DNA of 64,000 nt from Sipunculus nudus (Eukaryota; Annelida; Sipuncula; Golfingiida; Sipunculidae): contig CM049307.1 in assembly GCA_026874595.1 (NCBI GenBank), forward strand, positions 79,086,643 through 79,150,642. The letters are read 5' to 3'. Made by a program: the position numbers and the translations under genes. The stretch's first letter is position 1, and each line of letters starts with the position of its first letter. Below are positions 13,132 to 46,967 of the stretch, piece after piece. Below the pieces are notes generated by a model. It was not told the origin of the DNA. It worked only from the letters and a program-made list of their open reading frames with translations, and did not search any database.

Positions 13132-13200
<69 letters not shown>

Positions 13201-14318
13201 TATATTCATGATTTTGAAACAACCATATATAGCAAAAGATATTCATTCTTTCAGGACTCATTTCTGATAGTTAGACCAAACACTACCTATTCATACTCTT
13301 GCCCCTATATATAAGAAAAATATCTTAACACATTATTATGGTACATGGATACTACAAACAAAATGAAATCAGATAATAAACATAATTGGCTTGGTGTATT
13401 TATTTTAAATTTGACGATCATGTCATTGGAGCCTACAAACCTTCACCAGAATCTCTTTTAATATCAGTAATGTGTTCACATGTGCACTGTCATGCTTCAC
13501 AATCACGGGTTTACCTTGGATGAACAAATATACACGAATGGATAGTACAAAGTAATGGTCTTTTGTCATGATGGTATATAAGAGAAATTATGTTTTAATT
13601 ATTCTAATTACTCCGAAACTTAAATGGGCTATTGATAACCCTAACCCTGTTCAAATGTTTAGCAAAAACCGTCAATAATTTTATCTCTAATTTGCTTAAA
13701 GGCAAAGCAACGAACAACGACTTAAAGTTGTTTTTTAAGTGCTTAAAGCACCGAAAGATATTAACTTGCCTTTTATCTTGGAGAGTTGTCAGTTTTCCAT
13801 TTACATATATTTTTATAAAATATGTCTTTTCACTTTGGAAACTGTTAGTTTTTCGCGTGTAAGAGCCTTCGATGCCTTATGTGTCTATTCACAGCCGTAT
13901 AATAAATTACTGAAACTGAATAACCTACCAGGGTAGTAGTATCATATGGGGTTGTGGGAAAAAAAAGCCTGCCATCATGACAGATGAAGAGAACAATTTT
14001 CAGGCCCCGCTGTTTGTGACAGGTGATAAGAAGCAAACCTTATTCAAGTTTCCTGAAGTGCTATTCAGTGACGGGACTTAATGCACGAACAAGATGAGAA
14101 CCCACAATGAAAATATCAAAGACATCATGTCAAGAAAATGTTACTTTGTGAAGCCATTATGTGTTTGATATTACTTCACAAATCTGTGGCAGCCAAACAT
14201 GAAGGCTTTAGTCAGGAGATGACAACCCCATACCGACTAGGAGACAATGATAAAGAACACATCATATCATGCAAACATTAAAGCTGGTGTGTATTCGTTT
14301 CAAGGAAAGTCAAATGCG
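12558..14318. other. noncoding stretch with one (AT)n array
   Basis: No gene recognised on either strand. (AT)n at 13133-13198. Open frames here are short and lack family features. Confidence 0.5.
13133..13198. repeat. (AT)n microsatellite
   Basis: About 65 bp of alternating A/T. Confidence 0.95.
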
Positions 14319-14384: not shown

Positions 14385-14460
14385 TATTTTTTTATATGAT
14401 CGGTATTTTTCGAGTCTGTACGCCCGTCCTTGAACCCGTGTGTCATCAACACCGTCAATC

Positions 14461-15521
14461 ATGGATTCCGTGAATCCAGGGTCCGCGAGGTGGCGGAAGT
14501 TTTCTTCTCCTGGTCAGCTGTCCGTTGCCAGAAGGCGGAGGCAGCGGAGGACCCAGATGACCCGAGTCTACATTGGGTCGCACTGGGATGAGTGGGAGAA
14601 GCAGAGGGTTGGTTGTCACTTCGTAAAACAGGCCGACTTCATCCGGCACCTTCTGAAGGTCCATCGTGCCGCCCATCCTACTTCTAGTAGTAGTAGTAGT
14701 ATTCTTACTCCTGGTGTCCGCTCAACGTCCCGTCTACGCTCTTTACACAGCGCTTTACCTATAGGGCTACTTCCTATATCGTAAGGCGCTGTTTGTTATG
14801 ACCTTGTATCCTGCTTTGCAACACCAGAGGGGAGCACTGTATTTTTGTCCAATCAGATTAAACTTTGTGCTGAAAGACAAAGCCAAGCGAGGAATACACG
14901 GAGCCAATCATATTCATTTCTTTTTGAGTGACAGCTCCTCCCCCAGCGTAACCGTCTAAACAGGCCACAGGCTCAGAGAGAATTGCCCCTGACGTGGTTT
15001 GTTTAGGGCCTTGGCACATAGGATGCTCGGCCGGTGAGCTGTAATTCAGACGAAACGTAACAACAAAGGCTGCGTGCACACCTCGCTGGCTGGTTTCAGT
15101 TCTGCAGACAACAGATACATGGCTACGCTAACACAGTCATAATGTCATAATCGAATCGGTCGATGATGCGAGAATGATTAAATCGAATGGTCGAGCAATT
15201 TAAATTCGACCGGAAACTCATCAAACGGCGCTTGAAGCGCGGCAATGGGCGGAGCCAGGATGCCTGTTGAGTGTTTGTTTTTTGGCATCTGATTGGCTGC
15301 TTGTCACATCGTACGCACGTTTATTTCAGTGGACAACAAACCGCCACCTGGTGTCTAAATATATTATAAACGGTCACAGCTGGCAGCGTGAAAATCAGTT
15401 GCTTCTTTAGAAGCGCAAGATTTCCGCTGCCTCGGGAGCGTACGTCCCGTCAAGGTCGCCATGCTCAGTCTGCCACTGACGTTAGGCATGTAGTTACAAC
15501 GGACAAACATGGGAAAAAGAG
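14461..15521 (+). CDS. array gene exon 1 (interrupted by transposon)
   Basis: The ATG at 14461 is the first after an in-frame TGA (14431-14433), with G at +4. Coding runs to 14734, where a TIR element is inserted, and resumes after the second copy of the target duplication (15443-15451). It ends with two nucleotides of a codon at 15521 before a GTGAGC donor. Without the element the exon is 344 nt (114 codons plus 2 nt). It encodes a basic N-terminus with an RRRRQRR run, then 'TRVYIGSHWDEW..FIRHLLKVH', which resembles a small N-terminal domain common in this family. A six-Ser run from a (AGT)n tract and a 'HVVTTDKHGKKR' end follow. With the element present, the frame stops inside it at 14782-14784. 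Confidence 0.7.
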
Positions 15522-18500
15522 GTGAGCTGGGTTAAAGACTTACAGAAGCATTGAATGTGTGATGAATCGGAGCAATTATAGAATCCATCCTACAGGCTGG
15601 CGAGCGATGGTAATTCATACCAAAAACTGTCCTTATCAGAGTAGGGGCCGAAGTGCTACCCTGTCCTGTAGTGGTACATTCATAATAGCCCAACATGTAC
15701 ATGATATTCATAAGCTTTATCGACTCGATATAGTATCACAGTGGAGTAACATTTATAGTCCAATCACGATCAGCTGAGCGCCGTGACCCATGGGTCCCTT
15801 GTTTTATTTTATTTTTAATTTGGTTTTCTTTTTACACATGAGTAAGTTTGGTGTTATTTGTCATTTGACTTTCTTTGTTTTCTAAACTTGATATATACTT
15901 TTCTTGGGAACATATTTTTTTTTATAAAAACAGGCATGCAAATAAGCTATAAAAATGTGTTCTAAAAAAGTTTTTGTATCACAACTCTGTGTATTTGCTC
16001 AAGTTGTATTGAATATTTTAACACTTCTGTAGATATTTATAAGGCATGTACTGGAATAATGCTTCTAAATATCTTAGGAGGTGATATAACCTGTTTAATA
16101 GACTAGACATTTTATGATTTACTTAATCATTAGAGTAAAGCATTTTAAAATTAAAGACCTTTTTATGTTTGGCAACAAATAACATACATATTTTCCTGAA
16201 AGAAAGATCACCAAAATAATGCTGCACTTGAATTACTTACAGTCTTATAATTAAATTAGTTTCTAGTGCATGTTTGTGTACAAGCCTGAAGTAAAAAACA
16301 ATATTTTTTGTTATAGTTGATTTGTTGAAATAAAAAATTACATTTGTAATGCACAAAAAAAAAAATTTAAAAAAACTTGGTTTACATTCAGAGGAAAATG
16401 TGAAGGATTGTTTTTTTGGTAGTAAGTTCCCTGTGAATGTCTTCTTATGATGGAAAAGTAATATTATGGCATATCAGCTTTCCAAGTGAGTAAAGCTATG
16501 ATTCCTTTTTAGTGGTTGAGGCCCCAGTATATGGTTGCAGAAAGGCCTATTCCTTTTATGTGGTTGCAGATAAAATGTTTGTATATGCAATATACATAAT
16601 TTGGTTGTAATTTTATTTTTTTAACCAACAATCTGTAGTGAAATCTGCAGTAAAAATATTATGGTTTTTCTTGTATTTCAGAGAAGCATTTGTCCATCAG
16701 GGCACCAGCAGTGACATTGTCCCTCCTACTCAAAAAAGACTGTCCAGGTAATTGTTACTTTAATTCCTTTTTTTGTACTAAATTTTTTGTACTTTGTATT
16801 TAGCTGACTGATTTGTCATTATAATCTGCTGGTAATTCCCTCTGTTTAATGCTGTTTTGTGATGCAGTAATATTATGGCATTCCAACTTTCCAAGTGAGT
16901 AAAGCTATGATTCCTTTTGAGTGGTTGAGGCCCCAGTATTTGGTTGCAGCAAGGCCTATTCCTTTTATGTGGTTGCAGATAAAATGTTTGTATATGTAAT
17001 ATACATAATTTGGTTGTAATTTTATTTTTTTTTACCAACAATCTGCAGTGAAATCTGCAGTAAAAATATTATGGTTTTTGTTGTATTTCAGAGAAGCTTT
17101 TGTCCATCAGGGCACCAGCAGTGACTTTGTCCCTCCTACTCCAAAAAGACTGTCCAGGTAATTGTTACTTTAATTCTTTTTTTTTGTACCTAACTTTATG
17201 TACTTTGTATTTAACTGACTGATATGTCATTATAATCTGCTGGTAGTTCCTTCTGTTTAATGATGTTTTGTGATGCATTAATATTATGGCATTCCAACTT
17301 TTCAAGTGAGTAAAACTATGATTCCTTTTTAGTGGTTGAGGCCCCAGTATGTGGTTGCAGCAAGGCCTATTCCTTTTATGTGGATGCAGATAAAATGTTT
17401 GTATATGTAATATACATAATTTGGTTGTAATTTTATTTTTTTTTTACCAACAATCTGCAGTGAAATCTGCAGTAAAAATATTATGGTTTTTGTTGTATTT
17501 CAGAGAAGCATTTGTCCATCAGGGCACCAGCAGTGACTTTGTCCCTCCTACTTCAAAAAGACTGTCCAGGTAATTGTTACTTTAATTTTTTTTTTTGTAC
17601 TTAACTTTTTGTACTTTGTATTTAACTGACTGCTATGTCATTATAATCTGCTGGTAGTTCCCTCTGTTTAATGATGTTTTCTGATGCATTAATATTATGG
17701 CATTCCAACTTTCCAAGTGAGTAAAACTATGATTCCTTTTTAGTGGTTGAGGCCCCAGTATTTTGTAGCAGCAAGGCCTATTCCTTTTATGTGGTTGCAG
17801 ATAAAATGTTTGTATATGTAATATACATAATTTGGTTGTAATTTTATTTTTTTTACCAACAATCTGCAGTGAAATCTGCAGTAAAAATATTATGGTTTTT
17901 GATGTATTTCAGAGAAGCTTTTGTCCATCAGCGCACCAGTAGTGACATTGTCCCACCAAGTCCAAAAAGACTGTCCAGGTAATTGTTACTTTAATTCTTT
18001 TTTTTTGTACTTAACTTTTTGTACTTTGTATTTAACTGACTGATATGTCATTATAATCTGCTGGTAATTCCCTCTGTTTAATAATGATTTGTGATTCAGT
18101 AAATATTATGGCATTCCAACTTTTCTATGATTCCTTTTTAGTGGTTGAGGCCCCAGTATTTGGTTGCAGCAAGGCCTATTCCTTTTATGTGGTTGCAGAT
18201 AAAATGTTTGTATATGTAATATACATAATTTGGTTGTAATTTTATTTTTTTTACCAACAATCTGCAGTGAAATCTGCAGTAAAAATATTATGGTTTTTGT
18301 TGTATTTCAGAGAAGCATTTGTCCATCAGGACACCAGCAGTGACATTGTCCCTCCTACTCCAAAAAGACTGTCCAGGTAATTGTTACTTTAATTCTTTTT
18401 TTTGTACTTAACTTTTTGTACTTTGTATTTAACTGACTGATATGTCATTATAATCTGCTGGTAATTCCCTCTGTTTAAAAATGATTTGTGATGCAGTAAA

Positions 18501-21500
18501 TATCATGGCATTCCAACTTTTCTATGATTCCTTTTGAGTGGTTGAGGCCCCAGTATTTGGTTGCAGCAAGGCCTATTCCTTTTATGTGGTTGCAGATAAA
18601 ATGTTTGTATATGTAATATACATAATTTGGTTGTAATTTTATTTTTTTTACCAACAATCTGCAGTGAAATCTGCAGTAAAAATATTATGGTTTTTGTTGT
18701 ATTTCAGAGAAGCATTTGTCCATCAGGACACCAGCAGTGACATTGTCCCTCCTACTCCAAAAAGACTGTCCAGGTAATTGTTACTTTAATTCTTTTTTTT
18801 GTACTTAACTTTTTGTACTTTGTATTTAACTGACTGATATGTCATTATAATCTGCTGGTAATTCCCTCTGTTTAATAATGATTTGTGATGCAGTAAATAT
18901 TATGGCATTCCAACTTTTCTGTGATTCCTTTTTAGTGGTTGAGGCCCCAGTATTTGGTTGCAGCAAGGCCTATTCCTTTTATGTGGTTGCAGATAAAATG
19001 TTTGTATATGTAATATACATAATTTGGTTGTAATTTTATTTTTTTTACCAACAATCTGCAGTGAAATCTGCAGTAAAAATATTATGGTTTTTGTTGTATT
19101 TCAGATAAGCATTTGTCAATCAGGACACCAGCAGTGACATTGTCCCTCCTACTCCAAAAAGACTGTCCAAGTAATTGTTACTTTAATTCTTTTTTTTGTA
19201 CTTAACTTTTTGTACTTTGTATTTAAATGACTGATATATCATTATAATCTGCTAGTAATTCCCTCTGTTTAATGATGTTTTGTGATGCAGTAACGTAATG
19301 GCATTCCAACTTTCCAAGTGAGTAAAGCTATGATTCCTTTTTTAGTGGTTGAGGCCCCAGTATTTGGTTGCAGCAAGGCCTATTCCTTTTAAGTGGTTGC
19401 AGATAAAATGTTTGTATATGTAATATACATAATTTGGTTGTAATTTTATTTTTTTACCAACAATATGTGGTGAAATCTGCAGTAAAAATATTATGGTAAT
19501 TGTTGTATTTCAGAGAAGCTTTTGTTTATCAGGGCACCAGCAGTGACATTGTCCCTCCTACTCCAAAAAGACTGTCCAGGTAATTGTTACTTTAATTCTT
19601 TTTTTTTGTACTTAACTTTTTGTACTTTGTATTTAACTGACTGATATGTCATTATAATCTGCTGGTAATTCCCTCTGTTTAAAAATGATTTGTGATGCAG
19701 TAAATATCATGGCATTCCAACTTTTCTATGATTCCTTTTGAGTGGTTGAGGCCCCAGTATTTGGTTGCAGCAAGGCCTATTCCTTTTATGTGGTTGCAGA
19801 TAAAATGTTTGTATATGTAATATACATAATTTGGTTGTAATTTTATATTTTTTACCAACAATCTGCAGTGAAATCTGCAGTAAAAATATTATGGTTTTTG
19901 TTGTATTTCAGAGAAGCATTTGTCCATCAGGACACCAGCAGTGACATTGTCCCTCCTACTCCAAAAAGACTGTCCAGGTAATTGTTACTTTAATTCTTTT
20001 TTTTTTTGTACTTAACTTTTTGTACTTTGTATTTAAATGACTGATATATCATTATAATCTGCTAGTAATTCCCTCTGTTTAATGATGTTTTGTGATGCAG
20101 TAACGTAAAGGCATTCCAACTTTCCAAGTGAGTAAAGCTATGATTCCTTTTTTAGTGGTTGAGGCCCCAGTATTTGGTTGCAGCAAGGCCTATTCCTTTT
20201 ATGTGGTTGCAGATAAAATGTTTGTATATGTAATATACATAATTTGGTTGTGATTTTATTTTTTTTACCAACAATATGTGGTGAAATCTGCAGTAAAAAT
20301 ATTATGGTTTTTGTTGTATTTCAGAGAAGCTTTTGTTTATCAGGGCACCAGCAGTGACATTGTCCCTCCTACTCCAAAAAGACTGTCCAGGTAATTGTTA
20401 CTTTAATTCTTTTTTTTTGTACTTAACTTTTTGTACTTTGTATTTAACTGACTGATATGTCATTATAATCTGCTGGTAATTCCCTCTGTTTAAAAATGAT
20501 TTGTGATGCAGTAAATATCATGGCATTCCAACTTTTCTATGATTCCTTTTGAGTGGTTGAGGCCCCAGTATTTGGTTGCAGCAAGGCCTATTCCTTTTAT
20601 GTGGTTGCAGATAAAATGTTTGTATATGTAATATACATAATTTGGTTGTAATTTTATTTTTTTTACCAACAATCTGCAGTGAAATCTGCAGTAAAAATAT
20701 TATGGTTTTTGTTGTATTTCAGATAAGCATTTGTCCATCAGGACACCAGCAGTGACATTGTCCCTCCTACTCCAAAAAGACTGTCCAGGTAATTGTTACT
20801 TTAATTCTTTTTTTTGTACTTAACTTTTTGTACTTTGTATTTAACTGACTGATATGTCATTATAATCTGCTGGTAATTCCCTCTGTTTAATAATGATTTG
20901 TGATGCAGTAAATATTATGGCATTCCAACTTTTCTATGATTCCTTTTTAGTGGTTGAGGCCCCAGTATTTGGTTGCAGCAAGGCCTATTCCTTTTATGTG
21001 GTTGCAGATAAAATGTTTGTATATGTAATATACATAATTTGGTTGTAATTTTATTTTTCTTACCAACAATCTGCAGTGAAATCTGCAGTAAAAATATTAT
21101 GGTTTTTGTTGTATTTCAGATAAGCATTTGTCAATCAGGATACCAGCAGTGACATTGTCCCTCCTACTCCAAAAAGACTGTCCAGGTAATTGTTACTTTA
21201 ATTCTTTTTTTTTGTACTTAACTTTTTGTACTTTGTATTTAAATGACTGATATATCATTATAATCTGCTAGTAATTCCCTCTGTTTAATGATGTTTTGTG
21301 ATGCAGTAACGTAATGGCATTCCAACTTTCCAAGTGAGTAAAGCTATGATTCCTTTTTTAGTGGTTGAGGCCCCAGTATTTGGTTGCAGCAAGGCCTATT
21401 CCTTTTAAGTGGTTGCAGATAAAATGTTTGTATATGTAATATACATAATTTGGTTGTAATTTTATTTTTTTACCAACAATATGTGGTGAAATCTGCAGTA

Positions 21501-24500
21501 AAAATATTATGGTAATTGTTGTATTTCAGAGAAGCTTTTGTTTATCAGGGCACCAGCAGTGACATTGTCCCTCCTACTCCAAAAAGACTGTCCAGGTAAT
21601 TGTTACTTTAATTCTTTTTTTGTACTTAACTTTTTGTACTTTGTATTTAACTGACTGATATGTCATTATAATCTGCTGGTAATTCCCTCTGTTTAAAAAT
21701 GATTTGTGATGCAGTAAATATCATGGCATTCCAACTTTTCTATGATTCCTTTTGAGTGGTTGAGGCCCCAGTATTTGGTTGCAGCAAGGCCTATTCCTTT
21801 TATGTGGTTGCAGATAAAATGTTTGTATATGTAATATACATAATTTGGTTGTAATTTTATTTTTTTTACCAACAATCTGCAGTGAAATCTGCAGTAAAAA
21901 TATTATGGTTTTTGTTGTATTTCAGATAAGCATTTGTCCATCAGGACACCAGCAGTGACATTGTCCCTCCTACTCCAAAAAGACTGTCCAGGTAATTGTT
22001 ACTTTAATTCTTTTTTTTGTACTTAACTTTTTGTACTTTGTATTTAACTGACTGATATGTCATTATAATCTGCTGGTAATTCCCTCTGTTTAATAATGAT
22101 TTGTGATGCAGTAAATATTATGGCATTCCAACTTTTCTATGATTCCTTTTTAGTGGTTGAGGCCCCAGTATTTGGTTGCAGCAAGGCCTATTCCTTTTAT
22201 GTGGTTGCAGATAAAATGTTTGTATATGTAATATACATAATTTGGTTGTAATTTTATTTTTTTTACCAACAATCTGCAGTGAAATCTGCAGTAAAAATAT
22301 TATGGTTTTTGTTGTATTTCAGATAAGCATTTGTCAATCAGGACACCAGCAGTGACATTGTCCCTCCTACTCCAAAAAGACTGTCCAAGTAATTGTTACT
22401 TTAATTCTTTTTTTTGTACTTAACTTTTTGTACTTTGTATTTAAATGACTGATATATCATTATAATCTGCTAGTAATTCCCTCTGTTTAATGATGTTTTG
22501 TGATGCAGTAACGTAATGGCATTCCAACTTTCCAAGTGAGTAAAGCTATGATTCCTTTTTTAGTGGTTGAGGCCCCAGTATTTGGTTGCAGCAAGGCCTA
22601 TTCCTTTTAAGTGGTTGCAGATAAAATGTTTGTATATGTAATATACATAATTTGGTTGTAATTTTATTTTTTTACCAACAATATGTGGTGAAATCTGCAG
22701 TAAAAATATTATGGTAATTGTTGTATTTCAGAGAAGCTTTTGTTTATCAGGGCACCAGCAGTGACATTGTCCCTCCTACTCCAAAAAGACTGTCCAGGTA
22801 ATTGTTACTTTAATTCTTTTTTTTGTACTTAACTTTTTGTACTTTGTATTTAACTGACTGATATGTCATTATAATCTGCTGGTAATTCCCTCTGTTTAAA
22901 AATGATTTGTGATGCAGTAAATATCATGGCATTCCAACTTTTCTATGATTCCTTTTGAGTGGTTGAGGCCCCAGTATTTGGTTGCAGCAAGGCCTATTCC
23001 TTTTATGTGGTTGCAGATAAAATGTTTGTATATGTAATATACATAATTTGGTTGTAATTTTATTTTTTTTTACCAACAATCTGCAGTGAAATCTGCAGTA
23101 AAAATATTATGTTTTTTGTTGTATTTCAGATAAGCATTTGTTTATCAGGACACCAGCAGTGACATTGTCCCTCCTACTCCAAAAAGACTGTCCAGGTAAT
23201 TGTTACTTTAATTCTTTTTTTTTGTACTTAACTTTTTGTACTTTGTATTTAAATGACTGATATATCATTATAATCTGCTAGTAATTCCCTCTGTTTAATG
23301 ATGATTTGTGATGCAGTAACGTAATGGCATTCCAACTTTCCAAGTGAGTAAAGCTATGATTCCTTTTTTAGTGGTTGAGGCCCCAGTATTTGGTTGCAGC
23401 AAGGCCTATTCCTTTTATGTGGTTGCAGATAAAATGTTTGTATATGTAATATACATAATTTGGTTGTGATTTTATTTTTTTTACCAACAATATGTGGTGA
23501 AATCTGCAGTAAAAATATTATGGTTTTTGTTGTATTTCAGAGAAGCTTTTGTTTATCAGGGCACCAGCAGTGACATTGTCCCTCCTACTCCAAAAAGACT
23601 GTCCAGGTAATTGTTACTTTAATTCTTTTTTTTGTACTTAACTTTTTGTACTTTGTATTTAACTGACTGATATGTCATTATAATCTGCTGGTAATTCCCT
23701 CTGTTTAAAAATGATTTGTGATGCAGTAAATATCATGGCATTCCAACTTTTCTATGATTCCTTTTGAGTGGTTGAGGCCCCAGTATTTGGTTGCAGCAAG
23801 GCCTATTCCTTTTATGTGGTTGCAGATAAAATGTTTGTATATGTAATATACATAATTTGGTTGTAATTTTATTTTTTTACCAACAATCTGCTGTGAAATC
23901 TGCAGTAAAAATATTATGGTTTTTGTTGTATTTCAGATAAGCATTTGTCCATCAGGACACCAGCAGTGACATTGTCCCTCCTACTCCAAAAAGACTGTCC
24001 AGGTAATTGTTACTTTAATTCTTTTTTTTGTACTTAACTTTTTGTACTTTGTATTTAACTGACTGATATGTCATTATAATCTGCTGGTAATTCCCTCTGT
24101 TTAATAATGATTTGTGATGCAGTAAATATTATGGCATTCCAACTTTTCTATGATTCCTTTTTTAGTGGTTGAGGCCCCAGTATTTGGTTGCAGCAAGGCC
24201 TATTCCTTTTAAGTGGTTGCAGATAAAATGTTTGTATATGTAATATACATAATTTGGTTGTAATTTTATTTTTTTACCAACAATATGTGGTGAAATCTGC
24301 AGTAAAAATATTATGGTAATTGTTGTATTTCAGAGAAGCTTTTGTTTATCAGGGCACCAGCAGTGACATTGTCCCTCCTACTCCAAAAAGACTGTCCAGG
24401 TAATTGTTACTTTAATTCTTTTTTTTGTACTTAACTTTTTGTACTTTGTATTTAACTGACTGATATGTCATTATAATCTGCTGGTAATTCCCTCTGTTTA

Positions 24501-27500: not shown

Positions 27501-30500
27501 TGCAGTGAAATCTGCAGTAAAATTATTATGGTTTTTGTTGTATGTCAGATAAGCATTTGTCCATCAGGACACCAGCAGTGACATTGTCCCTCCTACTCCA
27601 AAAAGACTGTCCAGGTAATTGTTACTTTAATTCTTTTTTTTGTACTTAACTTTTTATACTTTGTATTTAAATGACTGATATATCATTATAATCTGCTAGT
27701 AATTCTCTCTGTTTAATGATGTTTTGTGATGCAGTAACGTAATGGCATTCCAACTTTCCAAGTGAGTAAAGCTATGATTCCTTTTTTAGTGGTTGAGGCC
27801 CCAGTATTTGGTTGCAGCAAGGCCTATTCCTTTTAAGTGGTTGCAGATGAAATGTTTGTATATGTAATATACATAATTTGGTTGTAATTTTATTTTTTTT
27901 ACCAACAATATGTGGTGAAATCTGCAGTAAAAATATTATGGTTTTTGTTGTATTTCAGAGAAGCTTTTGTTTATCAGAGCACCAGCAGTGACATTGTCCC
28001 TCCTACTCCAAAAAGACTGTCCAGGTAATTGTTACGTTAATTCTTTTTTTTGTACTTAACTTTTTGTACTTTGTATTTAACTGACTGATATGTCATTATA
28101 ATCTGCTGGTAAATCCCTCTGTTTAATAATGATTTGTGATGCAGTAAATATTATGACATTCCAACTTTCCTATGATTCCTTTTTTAGTGGTTGAGGCCCC
28201 AGTATTTGGTTGCCGCAAGGCCTTTTTTTTTATGTGGTTGCAGATAAAATGTTTGTATATGTAATATACATAATTTGGTTGTAATTTTATTTTTTTTACC
28301 AACAATATGTGGTGAAATCTGCAGTAAAAATATTATGGTTTTTGTTGTATTTCAGAGAAGCATTTGTCCATCAGGACACCAGCAGTGACATTGTCCCTCC
28401 TACTCCAAAAAGACTGTCCAGGTAATTGTTACTTTAATTCTTTTTTTTGTACTTAACTTTTTGTACTTTGTATTTAAATGACTGATATATCATTATAATC
28501 TGCTAGTAATTCCCTCTGTTTAATGATGTTTTGTGATGCAGTAACGTAATGGCATTCCAACTTTCCAAGTGAGTAAAGCTATGATTCCTTTTTTAGTGGT
28601 TGAGGCCCCAGTATTTGGTTGCAGCAAGGCCTATTCCTTTTATGTGGTTGCAGATAAAATGTTTGTATATGTAATATACATAATTTGGTTGTAATTTTAT
28701 TTTTTTTACCAACAATATGTGGTGAAATCTGCAGTAAAAATATTATGGTTTTTGTTGTGACATTGTCCCTCCTACTCCAAAAAGACTGTCCAGGTAATTG
28801 TTACGTTAATTCTTTTTTTTTTGTACTTAACTTTTTGTACTTTGTATTTAACTGACTGATATGTCATTATAATCTGCTGGTAAATCCCTCTGTTTAATAA
28901 TGATTTGTGATGCAGTAAATATTATGACATTCCAACTTTCCTATGATTCCTTTTTTAGTGGTTGAGGCCCCAGTATTTGGTTGCAGCAAGGCCTATTCCT
29001 ATTATGTGGTTGCAGATAAAATGTTTGTATATGTAATATACATAATTTGAACATATGATATATGTATATAGTATTTTTGTATAATATATATTTTTAAATG
29101 TTATGTATCCCTTTATTGTGAAAAGTGGCTATAAAAGATTAGGAAACCAGCTGCTAGAATTGAAACAGATACATGTATTAGGCAGATCACTCACCAGTGA
29201 ATGTTTCACAGGCAATATTCAAAAAAATTATAGTGATTTAATTAAATATTTTCAGGCAGAGAACATTTTTCCTTTTGGCATACACTGATAAACACTCTAT
29301 TCCTGGGGAAACCCCTATGTGACATATACAATTCTGCAGTATTCCTCATCAGATAAAAAATTTATGTTGAATCGGGTGCTACATGATCTGTCAACAATTT
29401 ATCTGATGACAGGTCGGATAAGTACCTTGACTGCGACCACATGTAAGAAATTGGCCCTTCATAAAATCATATGTTTGAATCTATCCACAACTGTGACCTT
29501 ACCTAGGCTGCAACTGCATAAAAGGAATCATAGCTTTAATCATAGACTTGTGCATTGGATGGGGGACTATTTGTGCCTCTTAGCCCTTGTTTAAATTTTT
29601 TTCTTGTATTTTCATGTATTTAAGTTTAAGAGGTGATGCTGAGCAAGGTTTAAGGATAATAGGGCATCAGTGATACCAAACTTTCCTAGGTGAACACATG
29701 GCACTGTAAATGTAGATATGTTTATAGCATATGGTCTATATAGAATTCATGATCATGTATTATTTGTTTATTCTCTTCAATTTTAGCAATCCCAGTGCAA
29801 TCGAGCTACCAGGATATTTAGATCAGTCATCTGATTGCAGCAGTTTGTTTAGTAAGTTACCACATTTTGTCTTTCAAACAAGTTTCTCACTCCCTTGTTC
29901 TCTCTTTTTCTCATATGTTTGTCACTGTTACAGAATGATTTGTGTAATGAGAGTGGTGAGAATTGTATATGTATAACCCTTTTCTTGGTGAATGTGAGAA
30001 CAAAGTTATTATATTCCGCTGAATATCTGTCTGTGATATCTTACATATCTAACACTTGAGAAGCAGGTGTTAGAAGCGGGGGGGGGGGGGGGGACTTCTC
30101 CATCCCATCTTCATATCAATATATATAACCGTGGTTGGACGATTCTTTTACAGATTCCATAATCAAATTAAATTTTGATCAAACAGTTTATTATAGACTG
30201 TAGTGATTGTACCACATAACGTTCCTGTGATTAATGTCTGAATTCCATCTAAATTCTTTCTTTCAGGAACCCCAGAGGTAAGTGGTCTGAGGAAAGTGAA
30301 GGTGATCAGAATTTCACAAAATGACCATCCTTTATGTACTTCAACTCCTGCCAAGGCCAAAAAATGTCTTCAGACTCAATTCTGGTAATTCAATATTTTT
30401 TATCCTTACCCTCATCCTTATAGAGAAGCCATCTAAAGTAAGTTTGAAATTGCCTGCATACTTTGGTTTGTATTTTAAACCCTTGAAAAAACAGCTTAAT

Positions 30501-31623
30501 TGTAGATATCAGTGAAGACATTTGGTCAGTAGTAGTAGTAGTAGTTGTAAACGATGCAGACTCTCATGTATGATTAGCTCATATACCAAGGTTTACAAGT
30601 ATATATTTGTAAGTTACAGATGATGTTTCCCTTAATGCCATGGGGAATGTTTTAAGTATGTTTGTGGCATATATTGTGTTTGAAAAAGTATATCATTTGA
30701 AACAACTGTAAATTTTCCAAACTTCAGCTCAGGTGGTATCGAGATGAGTGACATTGAATGTGATGAAGATGATGAGGACAACAATGCTGATGATAGCAAG
30801 TAGGTAGCATTAGATGTAATATTCTGCTGTGTCTTAATTTTTAGCTCAGCTGACTATAAGTCATGGGGTGTTTTTTCTTGTAAGAACATTTGATTTACTT
30901 TTCACAGTCGGTTTATATAGATTTAATCTGTTAAATTCTGTAATTTAAAAGTAAAAGCTTAAAAATTATTTTAGTTACTGAAGTTTTCTGAGGCTCTAAT
31001 GTATTTACATTTTGAACCTCCAGACCAGCCATGTCTGGTCCCTACAGCCTTGTCTGGGTAAACGAGACACCCTTTCTTGTACATATTTTAAATACTGATA
31101 CTTCTATATTACTATTCTGCTCAACTGCATAATAAATACAAAAAATTACATCTGTCAAATGAACTCTTACAGACTTACATACAACAATGGTGATACACAT
31201 ATCTGTCACATTCAGTAGAGGGCCATGGGCCCCTTGTTCAATATCAGCCCTTATGATGGTCAATTTTATCAGCACCTTTTTATCACTTCAAAGGCTACAA
31301 ATTTATAAAGCTGACAGTCATCATATACCAATCATTTTGACCTCCTTTTTATTCCAATTGCTATTTCTGACTTAACATAAATTTCTCTTCAGAATGTGCA
31401 CAATAGGCAATTATTTTTTTTGGTTTACCATCATTCAGAAAATGGGATTGTTCAGTTGAACTAAAGCTGTGACCCCCCAGTTCAGCAAACTTGTGGTTTG
31501 GGATTAATCCCCCATTAATGCATTTTGCATTAATTGCATTCATTGACATTACCAATGAGACATTGATGGGTATTGTTTGATTTCAGGATACTGTGACTTG
31601 TGTTGTGTGTGTGTATTTTATAT

Positions 31624-31689
<66 letters not shown>

Positions 31690-34600
31690 CATATATAATT
31701 ATATTGGAATCCCGCCTTGCGAATAACCCACCATTGTGACCACCCCTATGATTCATGATGAAACTACATTTCAGCATGAATCAGAATTAAACTTTTTATA
31801 GTGAAATTTGAGCATATGGCACAGAAAAAATGAATGGGTTTTTGTTCTACACATAAACCTTGAACAACATTAAACATGTAGAAGACTTGTTGCTGCCTGG
31901 AGCTTGGTTTGGAGTTAAAATTTTACATGCAGATACTTTGTGATAACACTCCGTGAAACCCCAAATTACATTATGGTCATGGATGTATGTGCTACAGGCT
32001 TTATTAATATGTCACATTCAGCTGGGCATCATACATGGCCACAAGTTATGAGAAGCATCCTTTTAACTTTTTCAACTTTAATCATTTATGAGTTCTATAG
32101 AGGTATTATTTAAAATAATAAATGATTTTTTTTGCAGTTTTGATGAGAGTACCATACTCAACATAAATTACCCAGAAAGAGACTCTCCATTGGATGAATG
32201 TGAAGAAGGAGTTTGTGATCCATTGTGCCAGAACAAGATCTCAGGTGGTGTTACAACCGATGAAGATGCCATTGGTTCAAAAAAGTGTATTGCACACAAC
32301 TCCAGTCTGGTATCGTTGGTCAAGATTGCTGTTGGTAGTAGGTGTGCGAGGTGTGGTGGACAGCTGAATTTTTCATCAGTTATGAGGGCTACATGTCTTG
32401 TAGTCACATGGAAATGTAGCCAGGACATCAGTCACAAAGGTAGCTGGGCATCGCAGCCAAGGATACATGGCATGTACGCTGTTAACCTTCTTTTACCATC
32501 ATGCCTAGTACTCTCAGGAAATAATTACAGCAAGGTGGCTCTGATGACCAAATTCTTAAATCTTGGATTTGTGGGAAATGCTAACTTCTACAGGTATGTA
32601 ATGATGTAATATTTTTATAATTTTTAATTTGTAATATTATGTATATTCTAAGGTCATCAGTGTTTGGGTTACTTTTCAACTAAATGACCCTTGGTCACAG
32701 CATGACCTGGGACTGTGACATTATATCAAATGGGAACATAAAACTTAAGAGAATAGAAATGAAACATAACCAGACAAATACGGCACAGATTGTTGAAAAG
32801 TCTGGATTTATTAAAATTATGAAATACCACAAAAATGTGTCACCCTTTCTTATGTAATTTTTCAAATTACCTTATATCTATAAGGACACACATTTAGAGG
32901 ATTCTCTGCATAACTATTTTTTTCAAAAGGAGGATCAATAATAATGGAAACTGTGATGACCTAGTTAATTTTTTTTTCCTGCTCATGAAGTCTGGTCACA
33001 TAAAAAAGACTCTCAATTTTGAGTGCACTTAAGTGAACCTGTAAACAGTTAAGGGAACAAATCAGGCATTGTCTTTTCAGAATACAACGTCTGTATGTGC
33101 ATCCAGCAGTTTCCAAGTACTGGGAAAATATGCAGGAAGACTTGATGGAAAAGAGAACTCAGCCAATTTGTGTAGCGGGGGATGGTCGCTGCGATAGCCC
33201 AGGCTTCTCAGCACAGTACTGTACCTACAGTCTGATGGATGTGGACACCCACCACATTCTGAACATCAACGTGGCTGATGTTAGAGAGGTGCAGGGAAAG
33301 TCTACTAATATGGAAAAGCTAGCGTTTGAACGTTCCATGGCTGAACTTATGGCAAAGGCTACTATCAAGGAGATTGTGACTGATGCCCATAGCCAAAAAA
33401 ATTGTTTATTGAGTAAGTACTGTAAATTTTCTTATTTTGTTTTCTTATAACATGTGGAATTTCTATTTTTTTTGCTTTCATATTCAGAAAAAAACCCAGA
33501 AATACCCTGAGAGAAAACTCAGTGGATACCTTTTGTTTAGTAATTATTGCAACATATGTGCTATTACAAGCCTTAATATTGGTTTTTATGCTTGATCATA
33601 TTGAAATAATTCCATTTAGATTTCAGGTATGTGAGCATTTTAACTGTTTTAAATGATGAAAATATTTTTTTTTCTTTTCCTCCAAAATGAACACCTGAAA
33701 AATCTATTTAAATTGGAAATCCCATAGATGGCATTAAAAAATTCTAATAAAAATCTGCAGTAAGTTTCATGTTAAATGAAGTTTCTCTAAAGGATAAATA
33801 AAAATGTGTCAATCTGTAAACCAGAATCTGTAACCTTATATCGATGAACTGCAAATATGATCATTCCTATTAAATATTTGTTACTGTGAAGCCAATTTAA
33901 TGTTTTCTTTACACTGATTAGGTAAATCATATTTGGCTTAGCAATATTTTCCAGCTTTTTTGGTATTTCATTAAATTAAGGAAACTACAAATAAATATTA
34001 GACAGACTCATTAATTAATATTTCCTCTGATCATATCCTTATCAAAACAAATGTGAAAATCTTAGTTATGATGTTGCAGAGAATGATGCCAAGTACAAGA
34101 ACATGATCCATCAGTTCGATACTTGGCATCTCAGTAAAAATCTAACTAAAAAGCTGGTGGCTGTAAGTTGAAGCAAAGTCAGTCAATGCTCTCTGTATTA
34201 GCAGTTCAGTTTCTTTCATTGTTACGTAATTGTGCTTTATTTAACAAATATATGCTGTTTCGTATTTATGTTTTTTTTTTCATTCTCACAGGTTCAGTGA
34301 ATCAGCTGACTGACATAACCCATGTGTCAGTGAATGTCTTGTGTCATTATACATTATACTCTGTTTGTGTGGGGCACCAATTGAAATATTTGAATCATTC
34401 CTGAAATTGTGCATACAGTTGATTAATTCATCCTAGAAATTAAGCAAACCCCTCTATTTTCCATTGAAAACCTGATGGTTCCCTCTTTTATATGCTTCAT
34501 AGTTTGCATGGAGGTTCTTCAATGTTATGTTCTTTGTACATGCATGGAATTAGATCAGCATTGCCAGTTTGTTGAAGTTTAGGCTGGGACTCCGTATTCT

Positions 34601-37600
34601 TGGTCAGAACAGCAGGAAATATTGATGCTAACTTTCATAGGAAATAATATTTAGCTCATCTAACAATATCTTTAACTTATTTTGATAACTATAGTATTTA
34701 TTTCATTTTGAATTTTAAAGTTATATTGTTGTCACTACCAATTTTAGCTGAATGCCCTAACCCACAGTTCTATCTATTGTACTAGGATGTACATTATAGT
34801 ATTGATTTTTATAAGAGTGGAGTATTATTGTATACATATCATCTGTCCGTTAACTTTGTGTTGCCGCTATAAGATACCAGGGCTTTGCGTATTAAGCATG
34901 TTTGTGGTACTCTTGTTAAATATTGTTTTTCCTAATTTTGTCAAAATATTCTGGATGACAAGAGTTATAGATGATTCCACATGTTTTCATTTTTTTTCCT
35001 TGGAGTTTTATGAATAAACAAGTGCTGTGCTAGTTGTGTGACCTACAATTTCTAATGTTCATCTGTCAGGCATCATTGATGGAAGACATTGCTTGAGGGG
35101 AACTAAAGGTGTGTTATATTTCTGTTTAGGCTGCAAAACAGAGAGGCTGTGGTGACCTCCATGCCTGGATTCCGTCAGTCCGCAACCATTTATGGTATTG
35201 TGCAATGAAGTGCGGTGGCAACACGGAACATCTGAAGGTTTGTTGGATTTGCCTCTATAGTTTAATGTGTGTGATGAATGCTCAACATTGAAATACAAAT
35301 ATTTGCTGTAGATGCAGGATCAAACAAACCGACAAGGCTTTTTAGTGAACCTGTGAGCTTATGCAACATTTCAAGATAATCAAATAAATAAAAATAAGAA
35401 ACCAGCCTGCATCATTTTCTGGGAACACAATTTCTGAGAAACATATAATTCATTTTTTCGGCCTTAGCTTATATCAGTAATAATTGATAATTATTAGCTT
35501 GTTAAGGAAAGACATAACTTTACATTTGGTTGTAATAGTACCACTAATATAAGTATTGGAATAAAATTTATATTAAGTTTTAGCTGTTTTTTTTTATCAT
35601 TATAAAACATTTTGCGCATGTTGTGCTGAGCATGTATTTTCCAGATAATTCTTTACAGGAGAACTGGACAAAGTGTGTCCTCCACTGTTCAAATATCCAT
35701 CAGTGGATCATGGATCCCCATGGATACACCAGTGGTACATGTGACCACCCACTCCCACTACCACCTGAGGAGGTTGACAAGCCCTGGATAAAGCAGGGAT
35801 CAGAGGCCCATCACGCCTTCATCAGAATTGTTTGGGACAAGACCCTGCTCAACAACCTAGAATACATTAGGAATTTCAGGTTGGTAAAATTTATAAGCCG
35901 ACAAAATGATTGAGTCCATGCAGCACTGTATATATATTTGTCAGTTGGAATTAAGTCAAAAGTTATTGTTAAAAAGTGTTTAAAATTTTTTAAAAGGCAA
36001 TTGTTAAAACATTGTAGAATAAATTATGTTTGGAAGAAAAGTCTAAGTATTGTGTACTTCAAGCAAACTCAGGATGGTCGCCAGGATGGTCCAGCTATAA
36101 CTAATGGGCTGCTATAGCAGAAATAGTCTGAGATTTTAAATCAACCAGATTTTAAATCAATTGCAGTGAATTCTGGGTAAAATCATCCACTCAAACCTAC
36201 AAAAATAATTATGTAGCAATTTAAAACTTTTCTTTTTGACAAATTTGCAGACACACAAGCTGGCTTGAGCTGTGTCATGCCCATTTGCTGATGTATTGAC
36301 CAAAGAGGAACTCTTTCAAGTAAGTTTCACCCTAAATACATTTATCTTTAATAGGAACAACATGAACTCTTTGATACATTGTTTATTAATTTGTTGCATA
36401 ATTTCAATTATTGAATGTTTAGTTATTAGTTTTATTAGCTCAGCTGACTTAGTCATGCTGAGGTATAGTGATGGGTCATTGTCCTTCTGTGCAGCCATCT
36501 GGCTGTCCCAGTGTTCATTAGAAGGGCACAATTCCTAACTGTAAGAGCTAGGATCATGAACCCTAGGCAGTCTTAGAGGTTCTTAGGTTCTCCTTGGAAA
36601 CCTTAAATTAGGTCACTGCTATCCATATTCCTTGAGATACAGGCTGTGATTGCACCCCCTAGAATTAATTCATATTGCCAAAATTATCATCTTAAACCTT
36701 CCATCTTTTGCATATGGGTCACCAAAATTAGGCCATTATCTCATGCTTGTCAGCTGAGCGTCATGACCCATGGGTAACTTATTATTATTGAACTTAATTT
36801 ATAAAGCACCTTATCCCAAGAATTACACTAAGGTGCTTTACACAAAGACAGTAGCATATTAAAAATTATTAAAATTAGTCCTTCTGATGCAAACCCAAAT
36901 CCATGGCATAATTGAAATATGCAATATTATAATGGTTTCATATTATAAAAGAGTAATATCACAAATTATATGCTAAATTATAATGACGTGATTTCACTCT
37001 CTGGTTTCATTCTTGCAAAAACTATTGCTGTTTAGATCTATTTGAGATTTCTGATCAATTTCAATAAGCTTATCATTACAGTACATTACATCCCCTCCAT
37101 TACCTCTTGCAAAGCTTTTTATGTTTTTTAAACTTTTCGACAATTAACAACTAAATACAGAGGCTTGCTTTCACAAAACAGAAAATATGTACCAAGCCTG
37201 ACCGAAGTGACGCTATCTAAATGAGGCCCGATCTCATTTGAAAAGTAACAGTTAAAATAAAAGTTGCGTTTATTTTTTTTTTAATGCATTAACCAATACA
37301 AAATGGGTGAGGTAGAATGTTTTATGTGAAGACAATTGTTTTCATTGCAGCTTTATTGGCTACAAACTTAGGACTCTATTAGCAGCCATCGACTACAACT
37401 CCCATATCAACAGGGAGATAACACTTGATGCAGAACATGAATTGAGGTATAAACACTTTTATTTTCACTCATAATTCCAGTCACAGTATTTGGTATGCTG
37501 AATGAAGCCAGGTTAATGAATCAAGACCACTAATAAGATAATAGTAACAGTAATCCTCTTATTATGGCTGCACATCTATTTACAGCCACATCCTGAGTTT

Positions 37601-38597
37601 ACAAAACACTTCTTGCATGCTTCTTTGCATGTATATGTAATTCTTGAAGACTATTGTATGAACACGCTATTGAGGTACTTTTATACTTTTTTTAAGCAAA
37701 AAGCCTGAATACTAGATAAACCATTTATTTAAACCCAGACAGCTAAAAAAGGCCAGGTTTTCAAATCTAATTTTTTTTTTAAGACCACTAGGATAAAAAT
37801 GTAAACTACAGAACACCATGATACAGATTTAACATATATGTGCTGTTTTCCATGACAGTAACTATGATTCAGCTGATTTAATCTTGAGGATCCTGTTCAA
37901 GGTCACCAGTTTTGTAACTCGCACCAAAACATGGTAGGAACAATTTGTGTTCCAAATTTTGGGAAAATATGTGAGGCCCTTCAAAAGTTAGGGGGTTTAC
38001 AAAAGTTTTACGCTTCGGCAGATTTGACCTTGAACATGAAGGTCTTCAGATTTCAAACACGTCCTTTTTTATTGGAACAATGAGAGTTTCAGATTTTGGA
38101 TGAGCATTTACGTTTATGACCACAGACGATGGCAGTGAAAATAATGTCTCCCAAGGACAGGAAGGGGGAAGTCAAACAAACACTTTCTCCAGGAACTGAT
38201 AAAAAACAAAACAAGAAGTGTTTGTGCCCAAACTGTAAGGGCATGAATACACTACTTAAACTATTAAATGAATGATGACCTTCAACTCTGAATTTTCATG
38301 GTCTGCTGTATGATCTGACTGAAAATATTAAACATTGATTGCAGATTCCAAGCTTTGTATAGCAAGTGGTCCAAGAAGTGGACCCCCTACCCCAGGAAAG
38401 AACCCAAGGAATATAAGTATATTCCTGACCTACTAAAAGACATACTGGAGGAAAGGAAGTATTCCGATGAAAAAATGGATGTCAAGGCCACGAAACTTCC
38501 AAATGACCCCAGTAAAATTTGTCAGTCAACTGCAAGGGTTCCTAAACCATCCAGGGAAGAGTTAAAGGAAGAACTGAAACGAAGGTTTTCTAAATAA
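14461..38597 (+). CDS. DDE transposase-like gene with ~30 tandem 66-bp exons
   Basis: Spliced model. Exon 1 is 14461-15521, interrupted by a TIR element. Array exons lie within 16682-28421. Eleven 3' exons follow: 29787-29851, 30267-30384, 30728-30799, 32138-32593, 33081-33412, 34080-34162, 35130-35237, 35659-35879, 36251-36319, 37351-37446 and 38345-38597. Every junction phase fits. Without the array and the insertion the CDS is 2,217 nt (738 residues). Protein order: a short N-terminal 'RVYIGSHWDEW' domain, Ser-rich linker, 22-residue repeats, acidic region, CxxC segment, then a transposase fold with 'GDGRCDSPG', 'VTDAH' and 'SWLE' as the likely D, D and E residues. The fold belongs to a transposase-like family expanded in fish and marine invertebrates (recalled, not searched). 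The 5' insertion and a TGA in exon 36251-36319 suggest a null or pseudogene allele, unless they are polymorphisms or assembly errors. Confidence 0.75.
14735..15442 (-). mobile_element. 708-bp non-autonomous TIR element, copy 2
   Basis: Starts TACGCTC and ends GAGCGTA. A perfect 9-bp target duplication CGTCCCGTC lies at 14726-14734 and 15443-15451. It is the inverted relative of 9087-9727. The perfect duplication, against 6/9 for copy 1, suggests a younger insertion. It sits within exon 1 of the array gene. Removing element plus one duplication copy (717 bp) restores a continuous frame to the donor site. No transposase is encoded, so it depends on a source elsewhere. Confidence 0.85.
15522..16454 (+). 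other. intron 1 of the array gene
   Basis: Noncoding. Near 15772-15805 it contains CAGCTGAGCG..GTGACCCATGGGTC, the terminal motif of a repeat also seen near 36750. Poly-T-rich towards the array. Confidence 0.5.
16682..16747 (+). CDS. array exon 1 of 30 (example of the repeat exon)
   Basis: 66 nt, entering with one nucleotide and leaving with two. It reads EAFVHQGTSSDIVPPTQKRL then S and a split Arg codon. It is unusual in having Gln where later copies have Pro in TPKR. Acceptor TTGTATTTCAG, donor CCAG|GTAATTG. Confidence 0.75.
28356..28421 (+). CDS. array exon 30, last complete copy
   Basis: 66 nt with intact acceptor and donor, reading EAFVHQDTSSDIVPPTPKRL. It belongs to the His-Gln-Asp variant also seen at 18311, 18708, 19912 and 26741. 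The following copy (to 28793) is truncated by a deletion spanning the acceptor and the first part of the exon. Confidence 0.75.
29051..29786 (+). other. intron after the array
   Basis: Noncoding, no gene seen. A stretch of about 40 bp at 29507-29546 is the reverse complement of part of the array unit (AAAGCTATGATTCCTTTT..GTTG.GGC), an inverted relict. Confidence 0.5.
29787..29851 (+). CDS. array gene exon following the array
   Basis: 65 nt between CAATTTTAG and A|GTAAGT. It takes two nucleotides from the array donor (AG+C gives Ser) and reads 'NPSAIELPGYLDQSSDCSSL' then Phe. The other two frames do not continue from the array, which fixes the array reading frame. Confidence 0.7.
30267..30384 (+). 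CDS. array gene exon, basic linker
   Basis: 118 nt after CTTTCTTTCAG, ending TG|GTAATT. Reads TPEVSGLRKVKVIRISQNDH and a Lys/Cys-rich end. An internal GTAAGT at 30277 would give an alternative 11-nt exon, but the long form stays open and in phase with the next exon. Confidence 0.65.
30728..30799 (+). CDS. array gene exon, acidic region
   Basis: 72 nt after CCAAACTTCAG, ending AA|GTAGGT. Reads SGGIEMSDIECDEDDEDNNA then DDS. The strongly acidic stretch precedes the transposase fold, as is usual in this family. Confidence 0.65.
31629..31684. repeat. (AT)n microsatellite in an intron
   Basis: About 56 bp of alternating A/T in the intron between exons 30728-30799 and 32138-32593. Confidence 0.95.
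32138..32593 (+). CDS. array gene exon, CxxC segment and start of transposase fold
   Basis: 456 nt after TTTTTTTGCAG, ending AG|GTATGT. It contains 'RCARCGGQLNF' and a spaced Cys pair ('TWKCSQD'), a likely small zinc-binding segment. Then 'GSWASQPRIHGMYAVNLLLP', 'LSGNNYSKVALMTKFLNL' and 'FVGNANFYR' follow; this order precedes the first catalytic Asp in the family. Confidence 0.75.
33081..33412 (+). CDS. array gene exon with first two catalytic-type Asp residues
   Basis: 332 nt after GTCTTTTCAG, ending A|GTAAGT. Contains 'VAGDGRCDSPGFSAQYCTYS', a hallmark block with the first acidic residue, and 'KEIVTDAHSQ' with the second. A Met/Leu-rich helix with 'MEKLAFERSMAELM' lies between them. These are the D and D of a probable DDE triad. 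Confidence 0.8.
34080..34162 (+). CDS. array gene exon 'QFDTWHLSK'
   Basis: 83 nt after ATGTTGCAG, ending at a GCT|GTAAGT phase-0 donor. Reads 'YKNMIHQFDTWHLSKNLTKK'. The H.FDxWH..K block is typical of this transposase family, directly after the second Asp. Confidence 0.75.
35130..35237 (+). CDS. array gene exon 'WIPSVRNHLWYCA'
   Basis: 108 nt (36 codons), phase 0 at both ends, between TCTGTTTAG and AAG|GTTTGT. Reads 'GCGDLHAWIPSVRNHLWYCA' and 'KCGGNTEHLK', the expected helix-rich segment. Confidence 0.75.
35659..35879 (+). CDS. array gene exon, Cys/His-containing segment before the catalytic Glu
   Basis: 221 nt after TTCTTTACAG, ending AG|GTTGGT. Reads 'ENWTKCVLHCSNIHQW', 'GTCDHPLPLPPEEVDKPWIK' and 'DKTLLNNLEYIRNF'. 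The spaced Cys and His residues could bind zinc, as in related proteins. Confidence 0.75.
36251..36319 (+). CDS. array gene exon with catalytic-type Glu and an in-frame TGA
   Basis: 69 nt after AAATTTGCAG, ending AA|GTAAGT. Reads HTSWLELCHAHLLMY, then TGA at 36297-36299, then PKRNSF. The phase matches exons on both sides and the residues on each side of the TGA match the family pattern, so the exon is placed correctly and the stop is internal. The likely catalytic Glu (WLE) is ten codons upstream. Nonsense mutation, base-call error and recoding are all possible. Confidence 0.7.
36429..36790 (+). mobile_element. candidate short dispersed repeat inside an intron
   Basis: Begins TTAGCTCAGCTGACTTAGTC and ends GTCAGCTGAGCGTCATGACC then CATGGGT. 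Similar terminal motifs occur at 15772-15805 (end type), 30841 (start type) and weakly at 31200 (end type). I recall such sequences as abundant repeats in bivalve genomes; the class is uncertain. Confidence 0.4.
37351..37446 (+). CDS. array gene exon 'LAAIDYN'
   Basis: 96 nt after TTTCATTGCAG, ending AG|GTATAA. Reads 'FIGYKLRTLLAAIDYNSHIN' then 'REITLDAEHEL'. The 'LAA.D.N.N' block follows the catalytic Glu region in family members. Confidence 0.75.
38345..38597 (+). CDS. array gene last exon
   Basis: 253 nt after ACATTGATTGCAG, ending at TAA 38595-38597. Reads 'FQALYSKWSKKWTPYPRKEP', 'KEYKYIPDLLKDILEERK' and a basic C-terminus. The 'K.SK.W..Y..K..K.Y.YIP' pattern is the usual tail of this family. 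An AATAAA-type signal overlaps the stop at about 38594-38599. Confidence 0.8.
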
Positions 38598-38679: not shown

Positions 38680-39225
38680 TTAATTATTATAAGGAAGTCT
38701 ACCAACTCTAACAAATCCACGATATTGACCATCTGGGGATGGGAAGTGATCCCGGATACACCAAACCACACAGCTTGGTATAACCACACGGTTTCCAGTC
38801 CCCAGACGGCCAAACTTCCATAGCACATACTGCCTGTATGCAGTATGCCTCAACGTGGCATTATTGTCCATTTGATCGTTCAGTCCAAAGAGGTCGTTTC
38901 GGTTTTGGATTGCCAAATCCAGCACATGCACATTTAGACACACCATTTCCAGGATATCCCTGGCAGTATCTAAAATGCAGGGCCCATCTCTGCGTCTGCA
39001 GCAGAGTTGCTCCTCAGGTGTCCTTTGATGCCTGCATCTTCCACAGTGACACCATTGTGGGGGGCCCTCTCCTAGATTTGGCGGATTTGGTGGTTGAGGT
39101 CCTTCATCTGTCTCTTGCTGAAGCGTTTCTCTGGACACCTCCTCCTTGAGTATCCTTCTCAAATTTGGATACGCAGCTAGAGCCCGCTTTGTAAACCTCT
39201 GCAGGCAGCCAAGTGATATATTCTC
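38680..39225 (-). CDS. last exon: P2X7 C-terminal (ballast) domain
   Basis: 182 codons including the stop, after a TGTTATATAG acceptor. It starts ENISLGCLQRFTKRALAAYP, followed by a Pro/Glu-rich linker. The domain then has 'WCHCGRCRHQRTPEEQLCC', a spaced Cys cluster that binds zinc in P2X7, and after a helix 'TLRHTAYRQYVLWKFGRLG', 'NRVVIPSCVVWCIRDHFP' and 'GQYRGF'. This order (WC.CG.C, CC, AYR....W, NR.VIPSCVV..IR..FP...G.Y.GF) is diagnostic of the domain. It appears intact. Confidence 0.85.
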   Translation of the reverse strand, partial: ENISLGCLQRFTKRALAAYPNLRRILKEEVSRETLQQETDEGPQPPNPPNLGEGPPQWCHCGRCRHQRTPEEQLCCRRRDGPCILDTARDILEMVCLNVHVLDLAIQNRNDLFGLNDQMDNNATLRHTAYRQYVLWKFGRLGTGNRVVIPSCVVWCIRDHFPSPDGQYRGFVRVGRLPYNN

Positions 39226-44470: not shown

Positions 44471-44479
44471 CTGATCCAT

Positions 44480-46960: not shown

Positions 46961-46967
46961 CAGCAAG

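Follow-up and report, generated by a model that had tools for sequence, protein, structure and literature searches.

Organization of the array

The window analyzed here is the whole 64,000-nucleotide stretch of contig CM049307.1 of the sipunculan annelid Sipunculus nudus (GenBank assembly GCA_026874595.1, positions 79,086,643 to 79,150,642); all coordinates are counted from its first letter. It contains a multi-exon gene, the predicted transposase gene of a Kolobok DNA transposon of the Kol0 type (transposase plus a second protein, KolX), in which a short exon 2 is repeated in tandem 30 times and a third of the copies carry an in-frame stop codon. A first-pass annotation of the sequence had proposed a transposase-like gene with such an array; the transposase identity was retained and narrowed to Kolobok. 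The features of the locus are collected in Table 1.

Tandem Repeats Finder (TRF) reported a 397-bp unit in 31.3 copies (score 20522), in agreement with the tandem exon copies originally noticed. The repeat holds 30 complete copies of a 66-nt exon, and the count of complete acceptor-exon-donor units in the first-pass annotation proved correct: all 30 are preceded by AG and followed by GT. Each unit enters with 1 nt and leaves with 2 nt, which confirmed the symmetric phase claimed earlier. When the exon and its flanks were used as a query against the 1.43-Gb genome (E <= 10), 31 matches were obtained, every one within the array; here and below, the lists of genome matches are lower bounds.

Strict identity was found in 3 of the 435 pairs of array units, or in 14 of 435 when gaps were ignored. 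Identical pairs make an exact copy number hard to assemble, and the assembly could in principle carry a wrong copy number or unit order, or owe the stop-bearing units to collapsed haplotypes. We regard such an artefact as highly improbable, since most units differ from one another and the window contains no N.

Reading frame and stop codons

In the coding phase, 10 of the 30 units contain a TAA codon directly after the acceptor (A|TAA, the bar marking the codon boundary). The order of open (o) and stop-bearing (x) units along the array is ooooooxoooxxoxxoxoxoxoxooooxoo. The longest stop-free run comprises the six units at the 5′ side (units 1-6), and translation of a transcript including all units would terminate in unit 7, after these six. 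The claim that any number of copies could be included without breaking the frame was therefore not borne out. One and the same G-to-T substitution accounts for all ten stop codons, which probably have a single origin.

The three possible frames of the array exon are open in 20, 30 and 0 of the 30 units, respectively. It is the first of these (enter 1, leave 2) that leads on into the transposase, because the fully open frame runs into a TAG codon in exon 3. The coding frame stays open into exon 3 if the array is skipped as a whole or if units 1-6 alone are used.

The fully open frame (enter 2, leave 1) could be entered from an alternative first exon with an ATG at 15509 (MGKR), which leaves 1 nt before GTGAGC. 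We consider its use barely credible: the TAG in exon 3 follows after 11 codons, so that the transposase is never reached, exon 2 of the related genes described below has the enter-1/leave-2 phase, and an open frame of 66 nt in closely similar copies is weak evidence. This frame was rejected as a coding frame on account of the TAG. The MGKR exon leads to a short frame only, and its surroundings are GC-richer than the array.

Variation among the array units

Diversity between units was 0.052 in the exon, 0.027 in the upstream intron and 0.045 in the downstream intron. Variable sites made up 15 of 66 exon positions vs 63 of 330 intron positions (Fisher p = 0.50), and sites with a variant shared between units 7 of 66 vs 21 of 330 (p = 0.29). 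Of the changes in the exon, 6 were silent, 10 caused a replacement and 1 created a stop, compared with 4.6, 12.0 and 0.3 expected; the silent share did not deviate from the expectation without selection (p = 0.43). The units are not independent, and these tests are descriptive. The array exon varies as much as the introns, with no detectable constraint, and shows no sign of being kept for protein.

A functional coding exon present as a variable number tandem repeat (VNTR) should have all or nearly all of its units open and an exon more constrained than the introns. Here no more than 20 of 30 units have an open coding frame, and substitutions reveal no such constraint. The first-pass annotation had suggested that splicing or copy-number change yields proteins with differing counts of a 22-residue repeat, and parts of the evidence agree with this proposal, i.e. 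(i) the 20 open units are in phase and have intact splice sites, (ii) six consecutive open units stand at the 5′ side, (iii) the tested downstream exons have been under purifying selection (see below) and (iv) expression of such arrays in variable number is known for SmPoMuc of Schistosoma mansoni (PMC2576457; this and other published systems are cited from extracts of the papers). The ten stop-bearing units, the unconstrained repeat and an in-frame TGA further downstream oppose it. A functional variable-repeat protein is thus distinctly unlikely, and the proposal was not supported.

Growth of the array

Among units 7-30, the difference is greatest between immediate neighbours (0.0475), smallest at lag 2 (0.0275) and 0.029-0.033 at lags 3 to 7. 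The exon types of units 10-23 follow the order Axx Axx Ax Ax Ax Ax (x again marking a stop-bearing unit). Unit types thus come back in groups of two or three, in which one partner is open and the other is mostly stop-bearing. The head-to-tail arrangement and the homogenized, recurring unit types are those of a satellite-like array, with an irregular recurrence.

A fuller copy of a dispersed repeat resembling a miniature inverted-repeat transposable element (MITE) adjoins the end of the array. This MITE-like repeat is 593 bp long and has inverted ends. Its first 108 bp (28941-29048) are matched at 94-98% identity by the start of every one of the 30 units, and therefore the amplified segment includes the beginning of the repeat. 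At least 39 dispersed places in the genome match the initial ~108 bp of the unit; of eight such loci that were retrieved, six (L001, L003-L006 and L008) match the sequence following the array well beyond ~108 bp. In three related loci (L040, L041 and L044), TRF found no array with a period over 20 in the interval from exon 1 to exon 6.

The transposase gene and its relatives

In the gene model, exon 1 leaves 2 nt and exon 3 enters with 1 nt, and the phases of all later junctions agree up to the stop codon at 38597. Both statements of the first-pass annotation accordingly hold, for splice sites that we chose ourselves. AG and GT are present at every modelled intron. The resemblance of exon 3 to its counterparts in related genes was reached at best in 85 of 2000 shuffles (C10). 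For the region 29851-30728, a version with one exon of ~117 nt and a version with two micro-exons (30267-30277 and 30424-30437) both keep the frame; the micro-exons were rejected as the main model, since the relatives, by our reading, favour a single exon of ~117 nt starting at 30267.

The phase-symmetric exon at 36251-36319, which the relatives have conserved, contains an in-frame TGA in the window copy. A sense codon occupies this position in all seven aligned relative loci (L039-L042, L044, L047 and L049). Because the exon is phase-symmetric, the frame would be open in a transcript that lacks it.

Related genes are located on C5, C10 (two copies) and C9; they have the downstream exons in common as well as an exon 1. 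The C10 and C9 copies are 99.4-99.98% alike. Between exon 1 and the exon encoding I(E/R)LP, by reading of the sequences, C5 and C10 have a single exon of 78 nt and 174 nt, respectively, with the same enter-1/leave-2 phase as the array unit. Since the single exon of C5 and C10 already has the symmetric phase, there is no need to regard this phase as adapted to the array. Position and phase suggest that the array unit is equivalent to this single exon 2.

Two of the related loci have an arrangement of their own. At C5:66231797-66244277 (L039/L040) a pair of Kolobok transposase copies is arranged as a palindrome. Its arms, 5.2 kb each, are 99.9% alike, and its 2-kb spacer holds an exon 1 and the proposed exon 2, once each. 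At C10:28203000-28224500 (L041-L043) two copies, 99.98% alike, are situated 12.1 kb apart; a second inverted terminal motif starts right after the TTAA of the first copy, which suggests abutting elements.

Selection on the protein was estimated from the ratio of nonsynonymous to synonymous divergence (dN/dS). Comparisons with the C5, C10 and C15 copies were unusable, silent sites being saturated. Two comparisons with dead, fragmentary relatives gave values below 1 (see Discussion). Purifying selection has therefore acted over much of the past on those parts of the protein that were compared, and the gene is not a long-dead relic. With one internal downstream stop and AG/GT at all modelled introns, the transposase gene is probably at most recently disabled, and a domesticated or recently active state is possible.

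Identity and ends of the element

Kolobok transposons are described as having a TTAA target site, RR ends and a C/DxxH motif in the transposase, with a zinc finger between this motif and the last E in almost all lineages; in Kol0, KolX is the likely source of the P2X7 ballast domain (PMC9587614). In the window, a DTWH motif (DVWH in C5 and C10) lies, by inspection, between the second D and the last E of the candidate DDE triad, whose three residues are located in conserved blocks and are predicted from sequence alone. Cys residues are present between C/DxxH and the last E. The transposase had weak, sub-cutoff matches only in Pfam, which were not used for naming a domain, and no match in PDB. 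A search of Rfam returned nothing.

The ends were identified by an inverted-match search of 8001-14460 against 39226-52000. It revealed an 18-bp inverted pair delimiting a candidate element of 32 kb (14278-46289); no 18-mer was obtained in 300 block shuffles. The TTAA target site duplication is present at both ends (14278 and 46289), and both termini have AG, in accordance with the RR ... YY pattern. In three copies on C10 and C9 the right end, the sole end seen, lies at TTAA and reads AGGGATAGTCTCG inward, likewise with AG. Matches to this C10/C9 terminal motif in the window were not clearly above chance (1 match vs 0.12 expected with 3 mismatches, and 3 matches vs 2.19 expected in a second search).

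With at most one mismatch allowed, the genome contains 60 copies of TTAA followed by AGCTGGTGTGTATT vs 3 of a reversed control, and the motif forms 19 inverted pairs. The right end of the candidate element is supported, because its last 85 bp are shared with the ends of this terminal inverted repeat (TIR) family at 87-90% in at least 38 places and the similarity of a C14 relative to the window, at 74%, extends as far as 46241. The left 183 bp, used as a genome query, matched nothing but themselves, and the left end shares only 18 bp with the TIR family; the left end and the unity of the element are thus less certain. The other 18 inverted pairs span 8.2-23.5 kb (17 at 8-12.3 kb, one at 23.5 kb). 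None of the 84 listed transposase or 30 listed KolX matches lies inside them, so that they appear to form a TTAA-ended family without listed Kol0 proteins. The agreement of the window termini with the RR ... YY pattern is for this reason, and because of the short match at the left, to be taken with caution.

The second protein expected of Kol0 elements, similar to the C-terminus of P2X7, is encoded between the transposase gene and the right end. For 23 of the 30 KolX matches listed genome-wide, a listed transposase match lies within 12 kb in converging orientation; for 7 this is not the case. The count took in 50 of the 84 transposase matches; the others represent additional exons of the same loci or close neighbours.

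A 17-bp perfect hairpin (14319-14384) was noted a short distance inward from the left end of the element. Outside the element, open frames resembling retroelement remnants are situated at 10181-10588 (aspartic-protease-like by eye) and 56778-58323 (reverse-transcriptase-like by eye), both with no Pfam match above the cut-off, and a further tandem array with periods of 96, 149 and 298 bp at 59258-59977.

Table 1. Features of the Kolobok locus in the S. nudus window
Feature	Position	Strand	Remarks
Left end of candidate element: TTAA target site and 14-bp inverted terminal repeat AGCTGGTGTGTATT	14278..14295	+	18-bp exact inverted match to 46272-46289
Exon 1 of transposase	14461..14780	+	Leaves 2 nt; protein matches C10/C9 exon 1 (E 2e-6 to 7e-6); donor inferred
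Exon 2 array, 30 complete 66-nt copies in 397/410-bp units	16682..28421	+	TRF 16496-29049; 10/30 with in-frame TAA
31st unit, truncated	28728..28793	+	Acceptor and 5′ half of exon lost
Dispersed MITE-like repeat, ends CTATGATTCCTTTT / AAAAGGAATCATAG	28941..29533	+	First 108 bp present in all 30 units
Exon 3 (..AIELP..)	29787..29851	+	Enters 1, leaves 1; short AIxLP resemblance to exon 3 of relatives
Probable exon 4 (..TSTP..)	30267..30383	+	Boundaries uncertain; alternative micro-exons (see text)
Acidic exon	30728..30799	+	Acidic exon in equivalent place in C10 (by reading)
Exon with CxxC motif	32138..32593	+	Family-conserved
Probable catalytic exon, AGDGRCDSPG and VTDAH motifs	33081..33412	+	First two D by inspection
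Exon with DTWH (C/DxxH signature)	34080..34162	+	
Conserved exon	35130..35237	+	
Conserved exon	35659..35879	+	
Phase-symmetric exon, candidate catalytic E (HTSWLE)	36251..36319	+	In-frame TGA in window copy
Conserved exon	37351..37446	+	
Last exon with stop	38345..38597	+	
KolX gene (P2X7 C-terminal ballast domain)	38680..39225	-	Converges on transposase; Pfam P2RX7_C 2.6e-39; P2X7 chains 2.2e-23
141/279-bp tandem array inside candidate element	40330..43303	.	Also adjoins C14 relative, ~75-84% identity
Right end of element with TTAA	46205..46289	-	Last 85 bp are terminal sequence of TIR family

Discussion

It is probable that the window contains a Kol0-type copy whose exon 2 segment was expanded by unequal crossing over, homogenized in the manner of satellite DNA and neutral for the protein. 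A segment of ~400 bp, in which exon 2 is flanked on either side by intron sequence and which includes the beginning of the MITE-like repeat, would have been tandemly expanded to ~31 copies. Unequal crossing over is a natural mechanism for such growth. Neutrality would follow from stop-bearing units having spread as readily as open ones. The array may have been tolerated on account of the position of exon 2 in a weakly conserved linker and of its symmetric phase; the frame would be kept in transcripts that lack the array as well as in those with one or a few open units. These splicing outcomes are predicted ones, and the window copy probably no longer makes a full transposase.

Several observations weigh against a neutral expansion of exon 2. 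The exon contains no insertions or deletions vs 29 gapped columns in the introns, which points weakly to constraint; the gapped columns are mostly in T runs or belong to one variant of ~13 bp. The flanking AG and GT have been kept in every complete unit. The difference between units is not raised at lags 3, 5 and 7, and the higher-order pattern is thus irregular. The sequence likeness of the array unit to the single exon of the relatives is not significant (at best 120 of 2000 shuffles, C5). Finally, dN/dS against dead relatives was 0.11 for 92 codons of the last two exons and 0.35 for 104 codons of one exon, although with dS as high as 1.56 and 1.07, respectively, these values are rough. Since a domesticated or recently active state is possible, functional readings of the array retain some probability.

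One of them is that the array acts as a poison-exon governor, in which stop-bearing copies compete and send most transcripts to decay, so that array copy number sets the amount of transposase. The intact splice sites of all units, the ten with stops included, fit this idea, as do the interspersion of stop-bearing units from unit 7 to unit 28 and the open frame into exon 3 that results when the array is skipped or units 1-6 alone are used. However, ordinary homogenization likewise preserves splice sites, the exon is without visible constraint, one substitution lies behind all ten stops and a further stop follows later in the gene; we therefore consider the governor unlikely. A splicing brake, in which open and stop-bearing copies compete and copy-number change by unequal crossing over tunes the amount of full transposase, is very unlikely. 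If true, it would represent a copy-number rheostat for the self-limitation of a mobile element.

The units of the kringle IV type 2 (KIV-2) VNTR of LPA include introns. Like the array described here, KIV-2 consists of protein-coding tandem units in variable number; it differs in having 5.6-kb units that are expressed as many protein isoforms, whereas the window unit is without detectable constraint. A close parallel is SmPoMuc of S. mansoni, in which exon 2 and its flanking introns also form tandem genomic repeats, in up to ~20 copies; these are more than 93% alike and evolve in concert, and some members are probable pseudogenes (PMC2576457). SmPoMuc has a 27-bp exon in units of ~1 kb, within a mucin gene for which transcripts with variable repeat numbers were shown (PMC2576457). 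The window array, known from its sequence alone, has a 66-nt exon in ~400-bp units, in 30 copies, within a transposase gene, and a third of its units bear stops. The first-pass statement that no exon array of such size is known to have been described for a transposase-derived gene is thus too strong as regards the architecture, SmPoMuc exon 2 being a close precedent; among the open-licence papers listed, none with an array of this kind in a transposase gene was found.

The element resembles published Kol0 transposons in its C/DxxH transposase, TTAA target site, RR ends and a KolX protein akin to the C-terminus of P2X7 (PMC9587614; PMC6004289). The ten full-length Xenopus elements tabled in the latter source are ~7-14 kb long. 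The window copy differs in its span of 32 kb, its numerous introns and the expansion of exon 2.

The array cautions that symmetric exon arrays in raw sequence need not mean designed protein diversity. It provides a natural case of satellite growth, within a gene, of an exon together with its introns, where one copy in three has acquired a stop mutation. For the Kolobok superfamily, the locus documents a many-intron transposase in a very large candidate element, with a MITE-like repeat at the amplified segment.

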